DNA from: Kribbella sp. NBC_01245
GTDB lineage: Bacteria; Actinomycetota; Actinomycetes; Propionibacteriales; Kribbellaceae
DNA length: 64,000 nt
Direction: 5' to 3'
NCBI RefSeq assembly: GCF_036226525.1
Contig: NZ_CP108487.1
Span: 4,960,001 to 5,024,000 of the forward strand
Below are positions 33,520-46,577 of this stretch, in pieces. The number at the start of each line of letters is the position of its first letter. Position 1 is the stretch's first letter. The notes under the pieces were generated by a model. That model saw nothing but the letters and a program-made list of their open reading frames with translations, did no database searches and had not been told where the DNA came from. The position numbers were made by a program, and so were the translations under genes.

Positions 33520-33592
33520 GTCCCCATCGTCTAGTGGCCTAGGACGCTGCCCTTTCAAGGCGGTAACGCGGGTTCGAATCCCGTTGGGGATA
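33520..33592 (+). tRNA. tRNA-Glu (anticodon TTC)
   Basis: A 73-nt cloverleaf: acceptor GTCCCCA pairs with TGGGGAT, D-loop TAGTGGCCTAGG, anticodon loop CTTTCAA giving TTC, T-arm GCGGGTTCGAATCCCG. CCA is not encoded. Confidence 0.97.
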
Positions 33593-33672
33593 CGCTCGAA
33601 AGAGTGAGTAAGAAGTGTGAAAGAGTGTGGTGAGAACGGCGCGAAAGATGGTGTACCATCGTCGCGCAGCCT

Positions 33673-33749
33673 GGCCCAGTAGCGCAGTTGGTTAGCGTGC
33701 CGCCCTGTCACGGCGGAGGTCGCGGGTTCGAGTCCCGTCTGGGTCGCCA
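33673..33749 (+). tRNA. tRNA-Asp (anticodon GTC)
   Basis: Acceptor GGCCCAG pairs with CTGGGTC, anticodon loop CTGTCAC giving GTC, T-arm GCGGGTTCGAGTCCCGT, and an encoded CCA end (33747-33749). It follows tRNA-Glu by 80 bp. Confidence 0.97.
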
Positions 33750-33797
33750 GGAGAGTGGCGGCGGAGTGGAAACACACCGCCGCCAATTTTCTCTCCC

Positions 33798-33870
33798 GGT
33801 CAGGTAGCTCAGCTGGTAGAGCGTCCGCCTGAAAAGCGGAAGGTCGGCGGTTCGAGACCGCCCCTGACCA
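33798..33870 (+). tRNA. tRNA-Phe (anticodon GAA)
   Basis: Acceptor GGTCAGG pairs with CCTGACC, anticodon loop CTGAAAA giving GAA, T-arm GGCGGTTCGAGACCGCC, discriminator A. It is the third member of the cluster. Confidence 0.97.
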
Positions 33871-41396: not shown

Positions 41397-43841
41397 CTAG
41401 TGCGTGCGTTTCCAGAAGGTGGGGCGAGTTGGTACGTCGGTCGGTGGCGTGCCGATGAAGGTGTCGAGGACGTTGATGGTGCGCTGCCAGAGGGCATCCA
41501 GGTCCGCGTCGGATGGTGGGGTCGGGCCTTCGCAGGCGGCCAGGGCGGTGACGAGTTCCCGCAGCGGTGCGAGGACGGCGTCGTCGACCGAGGACGCGAC
41601 ATGGTGGACCAATGCGTCGAGACGGGTGGCCAGGTCGGCCAGGATCGCAAGGCGTTGCGCCCTCGTCGGCGTACCAGCTGATCGAAGCAGGCGTGCTTCG
41701 CCGGCGAGCTGTACTCGGGCCTCGGCCAGCAGGTCACGTTCGAAGTCAGCATGCCGCGCCGGCGCCTTCCCGAACGCCCCGCCCGCGAACCCGCGACTCG
41801 CGCGCGCCCGGTGGACCGCGCCGGCCGACAATTGTGCGCCTCCGCTGAGCGGCATCGCGACCGCCATCGCGCCGGGCATCGACGGGGCCATCGGCGCGCT
41901 CATCGGGGTGGGCGCCAGGCCGACGAACTGGTCGGCGTCCCAGCCCGAGGGCAGTTCGACCGGCTGGATCACGCGATGGGCCGGTCCGCCTTCCGCGACG
42001 ACTCTCGAGTCGACCGCCACTAGCGCGGTGAAGCGGCAAAGCACCTTGTGCCGCAGCGATACGGCGACGATCTGACGCTCCAACTCACGCGGGTTCTCCG
42101 CCTCGGCGGCGTACCGGTCCTCGAGGTCGCGCAGGTGTCCTCGCGCCCACACCGGCGCGAGAACACCGCTCGCTGAGGAGACGGCGGGCACAGTCATCTG
42201 CCACGGCTCGCCAGCCGCGGTCGTGCCCTGGAGGCGCATCGCTGCGTCAGGTGCCGAGCTGCTGTAGCGGCCGCGGATCACCAGCGGTACGCCGACGAAA
42301 GCGTCCGGCATTCGCGCTGGACTGATCGTGCCGTCGACCAGTTTCAGCCCATCGGCGGACAGCGTCAGGTTGGTCAGCAGCGGCGTGCCGATCCGGCGAT
42401 GGATCCGGTCGAGGCCCTCGTCGAGGCGGTCCTCGCTCTCCACCAGTTCGCAGCGGCCGCCGCCGACCGCGGCCAGGCGACCGAGGAAGCCGGCGTTGAC
42501 CGCCCGGTCGATGCCGACGGTGTGCACCCGTACGCCGACGAGCGCGCCGGTGAGCTCCGACAGGATCTGGTCCTCGTTACCGACCTGCCCGTCGGTCACC
42601 AGCACCAGCACCCGTTCACGCTCACGTTCGGCGTCGGGTTCGGCGGCGGGCTTTGCGGCCAGCAACGTGGTGGCCTCGCGGAGCGGTGCGAGCATCTCGG
42701 TGCCGCCCCGGGCGGTCACGCCGGCGAGGTGCTCGACCGCGCGGAATCGATTGCGGTCCGTACCGTCCACCAAACCGGCCGGCAGGTCCTTGGGATGCTC
42801 GACGACGCTGTCGAAAGTCAGTACGGCGAACCGGTCGGCGTCAGTCAGCGTGTCGATGATCCGCGCCGCCGCACGTCGAGCCGCGACCATCTTCCAGCCA
42901 CCCATGCTGCCGGATCGGTCGAGGACGAGTACGACATCGCGCCCTCGTGACGCCGTGGCCTCCACCGGCGGCAGCACGGTCAGCTCGAACGTGCCTTGCC
43001 CAGCATCCGAATCGTCGGGCTCGACCGTCAATGCGCTCGCAGTCGCCTCCTTCTCGCCGTACGCCAGTCGGAGCACGAAGTCACGATCCACTCGCTCGCC
43101 AGGCTCGATGGCCACGCTGGTCACCCGCCCTTCGACCGAACTGCTGATCGCGTGCAGGCTGGACCGGATGCCGTGCAGGTTCAGTCCGCCCGGATCCACG
43201 TCGGCCCGGATTGCCAACCGGATCGGGTTCGGGAATCCGGGCAACAGGATCGGCGGCGTGATCCGGGACGCGTCCGGCACGGCGTCGGTGTCGAGCGCGA
43301 CGCCATCACCGACACCTCGGCCGGGCAGCAGTTCGCCCGGGATGTAGCGGGGCGCAACCACCAGCGGCAGCCGGTACGTCGCCTCGCCGTCTTCGTACGG
43401 GAGTGGGCCGACCAGGGTCAGCCGTATCGTCACTCGCTCACCTGGCAGGAGGTTGCCGACCCGGAGGGTGAACACATCCGGCCGCTCCTCTTCGGCGATC
43501 GAGGCCCGCTGCCCGGCCGCCAGCGCCGCGTCGTACGTCGCCCGGGCCTCGGCGCGTTCTCGCAGGTCGGCCTCGACCGTACGGCCGTCGGCCTCCATCC
43601 GCAGCCCGGTGACCGCCGCCCGGGCCGGCAGCGGGAAGACGTACGTCGCCTCGAGCGGGACGTCGTGCGGATTGCGGAAGTCCTCGGTCAGCACGGTCCG
43701 CGCGACCAGGCCGGTGATCGTTGCGGCCGCGTCGATCCGCTCCAGCGGGAGGTTCCCGCGCTCCGTGCGCAGAGTCCCGAGCCCGCCTTCGTCCGTCGGG
43801 TGCCGCAACTCGTCGGGCTGCATGGTGGTGATCGCGGTCAT
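41397..43841 (-). CDS. VIT and von Willebrand factor A domain protein
   Basis: An 814-residue protein of the VIT/vWA family. Residues about 25-150 form the VIT domain (LVARTVLTEDFRNPHDVPLE, TYVFPLPARAAVTGLRM), and about 300-480 a vWA domain with an intact MIDAS, DRSGSMGG starting at D308, and VLVTDGQVGN. A C-terminal helical region of about 200 residues follows. There is no signal peptide, so it is probably cytoplasmic. The start overlaps the MerR stop by four bases, forming an operon. The role is unknown, possibly a chaperone-like or metal-dependent adhesion or assembly protein. Confidence 0.88.
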   Translation of the reverse strand: MTAITTMQPDELRHPTDEGGLGTLRTERGNLPLERIDAAATITGLVARTVLTEDFRNPHDVPLEATYVFPLPARAAVTGLRMEADGRTVEADLRERAEARATYDAALAAGQRASIAEEERPDVFTLRVGNLLPGERVTIRLTLVGPLPYEDGEATYRLPLVVAPRYIPGELLPGRGVGDGVALDTDAVPDASRITPPILLPGFPNPIRLAIRADVDPGGLNLHGIRSSLHAISSSVEGRVTSVAIEPGERVDRDFVLRLAYGEKEATASALTVEPDDSDAGQGTFELTVLPPVEATASRGRDVVLVLDRSGSMGGWKMVAARRAAARIIDTLTDADRFAVLTFDSVVEHPKDLPAGLVDGTDRNRFRAVEHLAGVTARGGTEMLAPLREATTLLAAKPAAEPDAERERERVLVLVTDGQVGNEDQILSELTGALVGVRVHTVGIDRAVNAGFLGRLAAVGGGRCELVESEDRLDEGLDRIHRRIGTPLLTNLTLSADGLKLVDGTISPARMPDAFVGVPLVIRGRYSSSAPDAAMRLQGTTAAGEPWQMTVPAVSSASGVLAPVWARGHLRDLEDRYAAEAENPRELERQIVAVSLRHKVLCRFTALVAVDSRVVAEGGPAHRVIQPVELPSGWDADQFVGLAPTPMSAPMAPSMPGAMAVAMPLSGGAQLSAGAVHRARASRGFAGGAFGKAPARHADFERDLLAEARVQLAGEARLLRSAGTPTRAQRLAILADLATRLDALVHHVASSVDDAVLAPLRELVTALAACEGPTPPSDADLDALWQRTINVLDTFIGTPPTDVPTRPTFWKRTH

Positions 43842-44623
43842 GTCGTGTCTCCAGATTCTCGCTGAGCGGTCGACCGCCCCGACGTCCCGTGGCTTGGCAC
43901 CGAGCTGCGGCTCGGCCCGGCTGATGACGTGGGTGACTGACCGTCTGAATGGGTGAGGAGTTGACGCGCAAGCTCGGCGAGCAGGGGTGCGGCGGCGGCG
44001 CGGAGTGCCGACAGCTGCTCAGCCGTGAGGTGGGTGGGCGGTACGTCTGTGGTGTCGAGCACGACCGTGACGCCGTCCGACAATCGGATCGCCGTCACGA
44101 GCGCGGTCCCGTCTGCGTCGGCCACGGTCGGCCGGTCTGTCCAGAACCGCGCCCGCTCCGGCGCGAGTTCCGCCGCCTGCGCCCGCAGGGGTTGCGCTGC
44201 CGACTCCAACTCCGGCTCCCGCTCCCGCTCCCGCGCAGGTGCCGGCGCAGTTGCCGGCCTCGGCGTCGGCGTCGGCAATCCGGCCGCTGCTGAAGGCGCT
44301 GTCGGCAACGCGGCGATCGTGCTCAGGGTCCGATCAGTGGCGCCGGCTAGCTCGGCCTGGATCTCGGCCAAGGCGCGCCCCTGGGACTGGAGCCGCTTGA
44401 TCGCGACCAGTTGCAGGAGGTGTCTGCGGCCGTACAGCGCGGTGCGGCCGCGCATCTCGGCGGGGCGATCGACCAGTCCGATGGTCGAGTACCAGCGGAT
44501 CGCCCGCCGGTCCGGAACCGCGCGCACCCGGCCATTGACCTGGCCCGGGTAGTCGACGGCCAGCGCCGTCCCGACCAGCTCGGTCAGCTGGTCGAGCGTC
44601 CACAACTCCTCAGTCCCTGCCAT
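43838..44623 (-). CDS. MerR-family transcriptional regulator
   Basis: A 261-residue protein. Residues 8-75 form a MerR winged helix (WTLDQLTELVGTALA, AIRWYSTIGLVDRPAEMRGR and YGRRHLLQLVAIKRLQSQG), followed by a short coiled region, a Pro/Ala/Glu linker and a C-terminal beta-type domain (about 165-225). It has no cysteine metal site like MerR itself, so it responds to something else or to none. It probably controls its own operon with the VIT/vWA gene through the repeat at 44634-44657. Confidence 0.86.
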   Translation of the reverse strand: MAGTEELWTLDQLTELVGTALAVDYPGQVNGRVRAVPDRRAIRWYSTIGLVDRPAEMRGRTALYGRRHLLQLVAIKRLQSQGRALAEIQAELAGATDRTLSTIAALPTAPSAAAGLPTPTPRPATAPAPAREREREPELESAAQPLRAQAAELAPERARFWTDRPTVADADGTALVTAIRLSDGVTVVLDTTDVPPTHLTAEQLSALRAAAAPLLAELARQLLTHSDGQSPTSSAGPSRSSVPSHGTSGRSTAQRESGDTT

Positions 44624-44659: not shown

Positions 44660-44959
44660 ATCGCAAAGACCGACTCTTCCTCCTCAAATCAACGTCACGA
44701 GTGACGCACTCGGGCTGAGGCGGACGGGTGCGCAGAGAGTGCGTGCAGCCGATCAGGGGTGGTCGTGGCGGTGATTGACGAGGCGGGTGGGGGCGGGGAA
44801 AGATGTGGGTCGGCGCGGCCCGCGCCTCACCTTCGTTGACCGGCCCCAGCCTGGTCTTGTTGAGAAGGCAAAGGGATTTCAGATCTCGGGCCGCTCGTCC
44901 TGGTCAACTGCCTCGGGCGGGATCGCTGGGGGATCGCGTGCGAGTGCGTGGAAGGCCAG
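44660..44959. other. Non-coding stretch before the nitrilase-fold gene
   Basis: About 300 bp with no supported gene on either strand. The only long frame (from 44803) is a shadow of the following gene. No clear promoter or hairpin beyond the MerR operator at its left end was found. Confidence 0.6.
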
Positions 44960-45919
44960 ATGACAGCGCACAGGAACTTCAAGCGACGGGTTCGTGCCCG
45001 CGCCGCCAAGACGGGCGAGTCCTACACGGCTGCCCTCCGGCACTTCCGTCCGACTCCATCAGGAGAAGACATGCCGGAAAACACCCAGACCACCCTGCGG
45101 ATCGCCGTCGCCCAGTCGACGGTTCGCGAGGATCCCACCGACGCCGACGGGCTGCGTGCGAGCGCGGCGGAGGTCCGCCGGTTCATGAAGGACGCGGCCA
45201 AGGCGGGCGCCCGCCTGGTTCATTTCACCGAGGGCGCCATCTGCTTCCCGAGCAAGTACGTGATGTCCGAACTCGGCCCGGACGAGGTCGGCCCGTCCGA
45301 CTGGACCAAGGCCGACTGGGCGGTGCTCCAGGAGGAGCTCGACCGGATCGCCGTACTGGCGGGTGAGCTCGGGATCTGGACGGTGATTCCGTCGGTGCAC
45401 CAACTGCCCACCCCGACGCGACCGCACAACAGCATTTACGTCGTCTCCGACCAGGGCAAGGTGGTCAACCGGTACGACGAGCGCATGCTGTCGACCACCA
45501 AGATCACCTGGATGTACACCCCGGGCGCGGAGCCGGTGACGTTCGAGGTCGACGGCTACCGGCTCGGTCTCGCGCTGGGGCTGGACGTGATGTTCCCGGA
45601 GGTGTTCACGGAGTACGACCTGCTCGACGTCGACGCCGTACTGGTGTCGTACTCGACCAGTGGCTCGGCCGGGAATGAGACCGTGCCGGCCCAGGCCCGC
45701 GGAGCCGCCGTGGCGAACACCTACTGGGTCAGCCTGGCCGTGCCGGCCAACCCCGTGGCCGATGCCTTGTCGGCGCTGATCGACCCGCTTGGCAGGCAGG
45801 TCGCCGAGGGCCCGGCAGACGCCACGCCTGCGATCGCGGTCACCGACCTGCACCGTTTGGACCGGAGCCAGATCGGCCGCGACTTCCGCCGCCGGACCCG
45901 CGCTCGCATCAACTCCTGA
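44960..45919 (+). CDS. Nitrilase/carbon-nitrogen-hydrolase-fold protein lacking the catalytic Cys
   Basis: A 319-residue protein. Residues about 45-300 match the C-N hydrolase fold (LRIAVAQSTV, HFTEGAICFP, TWMYTPG, LGLDVMFPEVFTEYDLLDVD), with the first Glu in place. At the position of the family nucleophile (usually ICYDxRFPE) the sequence reads LGLDVMFPE, with G207 instead of Cys, and the region of the catalytic Lys reads YDERML. It is therefore likely inactive or altered. A 37-residue N-terminal tail (FKRRVRARAAKTGESYTAAL) precedes the fold. Two starts are plausible: ATG 44960, and ATG 45071 with AGGAGA. Confidence 0.75.
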   Translation: MTAHRNFKRRVRARAAKTGESYTAALRHFRPTPSGEDMPENTQTTLRIAVAQSTVREDPTDADGLRASAAEVRRFMKDAAKAGARLVHFTEGAICFPSKYVMSELGPDEVGPSDWTKADWAVLQEELDRIAVLAGELGIWTVIPSVHQLPTPTRPHNSIYVVSDQGKVVNRYDERMLSTTKITWMYTPGAEPVTFEVDGYRLGLALGLDVMFPEVFTEYDLLDVDAVLVSYSTSGSAGNETVPAQARGAAVANTYWVSLAVPANPVADALSALIDPLGRQVAEGPADATPAIAVTDLHRLDRSQIGRDFRRRTRARINS

Positions 45920-45924
45920 GTGAC

Positions 45925-45956
45925 GGTGTGAGGGGCACTCCGGTGCCCCTCACACC
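45925..45956 (+). terminator. Hairpin terminator after the nitrilase-fold gene
   Basis: GGTGTGAGGGGCAC and GTGCCCCTCACACC form a perfect 14-bp stem with loop TCCG, six bases after the stop. No T run follows. Confidence 0.85.
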
Positions 45957-45995
45957 ACAGTTCAAGACCGCCCGGCACATGGCAGGGTTGCGGCC

Positions 45996-46577
45996 ATGAT
46001 CGCTGACGTCGCGAAAGACTTCCTGCACAACGAGCTGCGAGACCTTCGGAAGGCGATGGTTTGGAAGCTCGAAGGGCTCAAGGAGTACGACATCCGCCGC
46101 CCCTTGACCGTGACCGGAACCAACCTTCTCGGGCTGGTCAAGCACGTGTCGCTTTGGGAGTCCAGGTACTTCGGCGAGGTCTTCGATCGGCCGTTCCCCG
46201 AACCTCTGCCCCGGTGGGACGACGCCACGCAACGCGGCGCCGACATGTGGGCGACCGAGCACGAAACGCGTGAGGAGATCATCGACCGCTACCGTCGCGT
46301 GTGGGCGCACTCGGACGCGACGATCACCGCGCTCGCCATCGACTCATCCGGCCACGTGCCCTGGTGGCGAAACCCCGAGGTGAAGTTGTTCAACATCATG
46401 GTCCACATGCTCGGCGAGACCAGCCGGCACGCAGGGCACGCCGACATCCTGCGCGAGCAGCTCGACGGTTCGATCGGAACGATCGCCGCACGCGCGAAGT
46501 CGCAACCCGATGCGGCGTTCTGGGAGACCCAGCGCGCTCAGATCGAGCGAGCCGCCAAAGCAGCAGCCAACGCTTAG
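45996..46577 (+). CDS. DinB-family protein (copy 3)
   Basis: A 193-residue DinB-fold protein, more distant from copies 1 and 2. Features are TNLLGLVKHVSLWESRYFGE near 45 and MVHMLGETSRHAGHADILRE near 140, carrying the candidate metal His residues, with a C-terminal tail. Likely a metal-dependent transferase or similar thiol-related enzyme. Start ATG 45996 has weak CAGGG upstream. Confidence 0.86.
   Translation: MIADVAKDFLHNELRDLRKAMVWKLEGLKEYDIRRPLTVTGTNLLGLVKHVSLWESRYFGEVFDRPFPEPLPRWDDATQRGADMWATEHETREEIIDRYRRVWAHSDATITALAIDSSGHVPWWRNPEVKLFNIMVHMLGETSRHAGHADILREQLDGSIGTIAARAKSQPDAAFWETQRAQIERAAKAAANA

Follow-up and report, generated by a model that had tools for sequence, protein, structure and literature searches.

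The window, a stretch of 64,000 nt from the genome of Kribbella sp. NBC_01245, contains a gene for a nitrilase-fold protein with a structured leader in its 5' UTR. The mechanical ORF starts at GTG 44948, and 44960 was taken as the gene start. The main features are the following.

44811-44936, + strand: structured RNA leader (R1/R2 element), 5' UTR, 126 nt; 133.8 bits with model R1, 117.5 bits with model R2
44960-45919, + strand: nitrilase-fold gene, 319 aa, intact frame
44960-45064, + strand: N-terminal module, residues 1-35, Arg/Lys-rich, FKxxVRxRxxxTGxxYTxAL/R; common to unrelated proteins
45071-45916, + strand: nitrilase-fold body, residues 38-319; PF00795 over residues 70-296, Foldseek matches to amidases/CPA at E 2e-11
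45925-45958, + strand: strong hairpin 3' of the stop codon, terminator-like, without a U-run

The host genome is a single contig of 8.68 Mb with six CN_hydrolase genes. A VIT/VWA protein resembling sortase targets is encoded at 41397-44623 on the - strand, adjoined by a MerR-type gene, and a mycothiol-S-transferase (DinB superfamily) gene lies just 3' of the nitrilase-fold gene (45996-46577, +). Three tRNA genes are clustered at 33520-33870 (+).

The sequence-only reading of this ORF had proposed a nitrilase-like fold, which was borne out by Pfam and Foldseek. PF00795 (CN_hydrolase) matched at 64.8 bits (cut-off, 23.2), and nitrilase-superfamily structures ranked first for the body in Foldseek (TM ~0.5). 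A PDB search with the single sequence found no relative at E<=0.001; structural relatives in the PDB were reached only with a profile. The AlphaFold model, calculated from 10 input sequences, had a mean pLDDT of 56.5 and was low at residues 173-192 and 206-222. The predicted nitrilase fold is supported by these analyses but the residue geometry is not, and one residue of interest, C95, is unplaced in the model. The frame is unbroken, as that reading had stated. Its suggestion of an own terminator held in part: the hairpin behind the stop codon is strong (-34.1 kcal/mol, z -6.1), but the U-run is missing.

The active site is changed at several positions, and we call proteins that carry these replacements swapped and those with the usual residues canonical.

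45230-45232, + strand: E91, catalytic-Glu position, retained and invariant
45242-45244, + strand: C95, clade-specific Cys and candidate relocated nucleophile; S/T/V in 25 canonical proteins
45479-45481, + strand: E174, where canonical proteins have Lys; 62 E and 2 D among the 64 swapped, K in 25/25 canonical
45500-45502, + strand: K181 at the canonical Glu position (probable Glu2); K in 64/64 swapped, E in 25/25 canonical
45578-45580, + strand: G207 at the nucleophile position; G in 64/64 swapped, C in 25/25 canonical

These residues lie in the motifs HFTE91GAIC95, RYDE174RMLSTTK181IT, and LALG207LDVMFPE. After 12 ORFs shorter than 220 aa had been left out, 94 distinct proteins, pooled from every source, were aligned. 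The states at 91/174/181/207 were EEKG in 62 proteins, EDKG in two, -EKG in one (a fragment), and EKEC in 25, and the combinations EKE-, EKEG, EKGC, and EKKC occurred in one protein each. Position 95 was Cys in 63 of the 64 swapped proteins and Ser in the remaining one. The columns that most strongly separated the clades included 95, 174, 181, and 207. Two canonical-clade nitrilases (L063:3875-4750 and L067:3872-4753) are without the Cys (EKE- and EKEG), with Lys and Glu kept.

In BLASTP against a canonical relative, residues 171-207 paired without gaps, so that E174 stood opposite Lys, K181 opposite Glu, and G207 opposite Cys; therefore, the changes at these three positions do not depend on the placing of gaps. 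A gap lies directly beside C95 in the same alignment. Two of the checks that had been proposed earlier, alignment with C-N hydrolases and conservation of the Gly among orthologues (64/64 EEKG/EDKG proteins), agreed with the claim of a Gly in place of the nucleophile. The claim that two triad members are changed also stands, the catalytic Glu (E91) being retained. The lysine region YDERML was described as lacking its Lys, and Glu indeed occupies that position; however, a Lys is present seven residues on (K181), and plain loss of the Lys was ruled out. As judged from the aligned sequences, the Lys is not merely lost, it is exchanged with a conserved Glu seven residues on.

The triad of MtCPA is Glu48, Lys121, and Cys158, and a second, superfamily-conserved Glu132 supports the Cys and Lys (PMC4812014). 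The invariant canonical Glu at 181 is probably this second Glu (Glu2) of the superfamily, since the spacing fits; profile alignments to solved amidases place it one or two residues off Glu2. If this assignment is right, the clade has exchanged Lys and Glu2. The swapped protein shares the fold, the CN_hydrolase profile, and the catalytic Glu with the amidases and carbamoyl hydrolases of the superfamily (AmiE, 2uxy; MtCPA, 5h8i-l; NitFhit, 1ems). Unlike them, it is without the elbow Cys and the Lys of the Y-x-K motif at its canonical place, has Glu and Lys exchanged, and carries an extra N-terminal module. With these residues, it is predicted that the swapped protein cannot run the classical nitrilase Cys-thioester (Cys-Lys-Glu) reaction.

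The gene was found in 36 of the 38 genus genomes, with the copy in G018 frameshifted and in two pieces; G003 and G023 had only distant nitrilases. Named relatives at 69-82% identity were mostly from Kribbella. The second-best nitrilase group in the same genomes, in which most proteins retain Lys and Cys, was ~40-47% identical. This EKEC sister family (L055, L125, and L158 from a Streptomyces plasmid) has common loops with the swapped clade; unlike the latter, it has the canonical E-K-E-C set and no N-terminal module. In a tree built without the swap columns and without the L144 fragment, the swapped state appeared as one change, and the 64-row clade had an SH-aLRT support of 96. Its closest canonical kin were plasmid proteins of Streptomyces and Kitasatospora. 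Among plasmids, full-length module-bearing homologues were found in Sinorhizobium, Rhizobium, Phyllobacterium, Microvirga, and Streptomyces, and 36 of the 53 matching records had a coverage of at least 80%. A search across the phylum with profile A1 gave matches in at least 2 of 396 genomes, and a search of viral contigs gave no match. On this phylogenetic evidence, the swapped form is of single origin and is maintained in Actinomycetes and on rhizobial plasmids. Many of the 64 swapped proteins are close Kribbella relatives, and the counts are therefore non-independent. A single swap event means that long conservation is shown but not repeated coevolution, so that the coupling of the four sites is unreplicated.

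Neighbouring genes were varied small-molecule enzymes and regulators with no constant partner. In genome G246 (L109/L074, C6:315930-317911), one gene of each kind, swapped and canonical, stands next to the other in divergent orientation, and the two may be a functional pair. Broken copies of the swapped gene occur in L054 (G018), L144 (G137), and L168 (S. meliloti pSmeRU11c); in these, the leader and the beginning of the module can still be made out.

The existence of such frameshifted or truncated copies would fit an ordinary decayed or mutated nitrilase, but the same replacements are conserved in 64 proteins from two phyla, and we regard this explanation of the window gene as hardly credible. 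The earlier view that the gene is not simply decayed was thus confirmed; the 36/38 genus orthologues, together with the conserved replacements, rule out a simple pseudogene.

What the body does is a more balanced question. It may be a non-catalytic pseudoenzyme, whose rebuilt pocket does no more than bind a ligand or a partner protein (e.g. a canonical nitrilase) and in which C95 is structural. No nucleophile residue is present at the elbow in 64/64 proteins, and the divergent pair in G246 fits such a partnership, but that pair is found in one genome only, and the near-invariance of C95 and K181 goes beyond the needs of a purely structural role. We give the pseudoenzyme slightly less than even odds. 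The literature listings on nitrilase pseudoenzymes that were examined yielded nothing on this swapped protein. In another explanation, chemistry has been relocated: C95 (or S95) would be a new nucleophile, and E91, E174, and K181 would form an acid-base network. This is attractive in that a Cys was gained at E91+4 (one Ser among the 64) in the very clade that lost C207; against it, the BLASTP gap lies beside C95, the AlphaFold model gives C95 no geometry, and there was one origin only. We consider relocated chemistry unlikely.

The structured leader is the most unusual part of the locus; like the Lys-Glu exchange and the shared module, it does not figure in the sequence-only reading. Upstream DNA is conserved from Kribbella to the rhizobial plasmid copies, and the leader itself stands before the latter. 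Its helices are, in window coordinates:

44812-44826, + strand: hairpin P1, 44812-44815 with 44823-44826; 96.4% of cells paired
44817-44892, + strand: pseudoknot a, P1 loop 44817-44821 with 44888-44892; 98.9% paired, 4/5 pairs vary on both sides
44830-44868, + strand: P2 (44830-44834 with 44864-44868) enclosing P3 (44838-44841 with 44853-44856)
44844-44931, + strand: pseudoknot b, CCCCAGC 44844-44850 with GCTGGGG 44925-44931; 100% paired on alignment A5
44873-44887, + strand: P4, 44873-44877 with 44883-44887; 99.4% paired
44909-44919, + strand: P5, 44909-44912 with 44916-44919, the weakest helix; 89.9% paired

Across 35 nitrilase leaders, the seven helices (two of them pseudoknotted) had standard pairs in 97.7% of pair cells, compared with 38-51% in slid controls. 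Fourteen of the 34 pairs vary on both sides, and 0/500 shuffles reached the observed covariation; one P2 pair, for example, is exchanged from C-G to U-A in 15/35 rows. In 43 diverse elements, the covariation score was 0.357 versus 0.130 in shuffled alignments, the alignment having been fitted to the structure. Pseudoknot b, which joins the P3 loop region to the 3' part, was Watson-Crick at 7/7 positions in 81 of 91 elements, versus 161/1176 swapped and 175/910 shuffled controls, although a few of the 81 best 7-mer pairs are other complementary stretches and not homologous pseudoknot b. In divergent elements, this helix is rewritten as CTCACGC/GCGTGAG, CCCACGC/GCGTGGG, CTCCGGC/GCCGGAG, or CTCGCGC/GCGCGAG. 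By MFE folding, the window leader alone was no more stable than its shuffles (z -0.14). The two predicted pseudoknots rest on comparative evidence and are shown by covariation.

The Rfam 15 covariance models gave chance-level matches only and none at the leader element, and the literature listings examined for the leader or its partners had nothing on the element. ZMP/ZTP riboswitches occur near two loci (L151:1644-1727, -; L083:2984-3066, +) and are unrelated to it. As in riboswitches and in S15-type autogenous leaders (PMC4137082), the 5' leader is conserved, structured, covarying, and pseudoknotted. It differs from them in belonging to no Rfam 15 family and in being tied to an N-terminal peptide common to unrelated proteins.

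This peptide, the module, had no Pfam family at E<=10 when residues 1-42 were searched, and it was missing from all 29 non-swapped nitrilases aligned. In the class, it was found in 53 of 394 genomes at 75 places. Its partners are APH, BtrH_N/DUF4872, DUF4287/AHSA1, DUF2087, a weak DUF1835, or domainless proteins, and a zf-C4_ClpX partner was met via the leader search. BLASTP matches between the families need the first 40 residues, and the partner tails are unrelated by BLASTP except between two BtrH groups. Between families, the module has a median pS of 0.56 and pN of 0.29 at 58% identity, which indicates that the peptide itself is under selection. Within Kribbella (435 pairs), the median dN/dS was 0.31 for the body and 0.17 for the module, values that are affected by saturation. 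The pS was lower in the module (0.18) than in the body (0.43), and this hints at an extra nucleotide-level constraint there.

Leader and module were found together in nearly all searches. Model R1, built from nitrilase leaders only, gave 57 matches at E<=0.01 in 37 of the 38 genus genomes. Judged by position and by reading the downstream sequence, a module gene followed in 53: the swapped gene in 36 (G018 frameshifted), an APH-type module gene in 16, and the zf-C4_ClpX module gene in one. The other four precede canonical nitrilases of the sister family without the module (L055, L056, L058, and the fragment L241); thus, the pairing is not absolute, and the first three, all from Kribbella, have the same leader RNA as the swapped gene. 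In 345 class genomes, R1 gave 26 matches with a module gene downstream in 25, the exception (L243) being a weak, partial match without a module ORF. Model R2, built from 43 diverse elements, many of them from module loci, gave 64 matches in 41 of 335 class genomes, with the module downstream in 64/64; 59 coincided with modules of the class survey, same strand and no more than 76 nt away, and the five others, read individually, also had the module, one of them degraded. The leader-module spacing was 19-80 nt on the same strand in 34/34 cases measured. Conversely, R1 matched 15 of 17 further module loci at E<=1; it missed L252 and L263, and R2 finds an element at the place of L263 (G324). These searches show that the pairing of leader and module is near-strict in the genomes surveyed. 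At L144:9517-10246, ~5 kb away from a swapped gene, there is a second leader-plus-module gene with an unknown body.

The same leader and module ahead of unrelated genes, as well as plasmid locations in rhizobia and Streptomyces, could also be produced by a DNA-level mobile or recombination unit that is placed before different genes and has no role as a regulatory RNA. The covariation of the double pseudoknot and the constant strand and spacing relative to the start codon agree with an RNA function instead, and we think a purely mobile unit quite improbable. We read the leader plus module as a putative portable cis-regulatory RNA-peptide unit.

Our preferred explanation, at a probability of roughly 0.7, is that the locus is a regulated three-part unit of structured leader, Arg-rich module, and once-rebuilt nitrilase-fold body. 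The 126-nt double-pseudoknot leader would be a cis-regulator of ORF 44960-45919 and of the other partner genes. The Arg-rich module, translated directly behind the leader, probably joins it in control; it might, for instance, be an RNA-binding tag through which the product feeds back on the mRNA that encodes it, or the ribosome might sense it as a nascent peptide. In the body, the conserved sequences show that E91 was kept, that Lys and Glu were exchanged, that Gly took the place of Cys, and that a Cys was gained at E91+4. The pocket would then retain its charges and serve a different purpose, most likely to bind, or to modify by way of C95, a small amide-type or related molecule. A bolder version is tentative, and we would sooner bet against it than for it: leader and module would be one portable control unit of a new class, a cis-acting RNA cooperating with the peptide encoded just behind it. 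This unit would serve at least seven unrelated protein kinds in Actinomycetes and, in rhizobia, the nitrilase body; in the window gene, the nucleophile would have moved from C207 to C95.

A covarying leader that is absent from Rfam and tied almost strictly to the module would be a new coupling of RNA structure to protein synthesis. The partner list (APH-like, BtrH-like, SRPBCC-like, and ClpX zinc finger proteins) offers direct handles on the signal, and in the swapped active site nature provides a clean test of the ways in which a nitrilase fold can be rewired.
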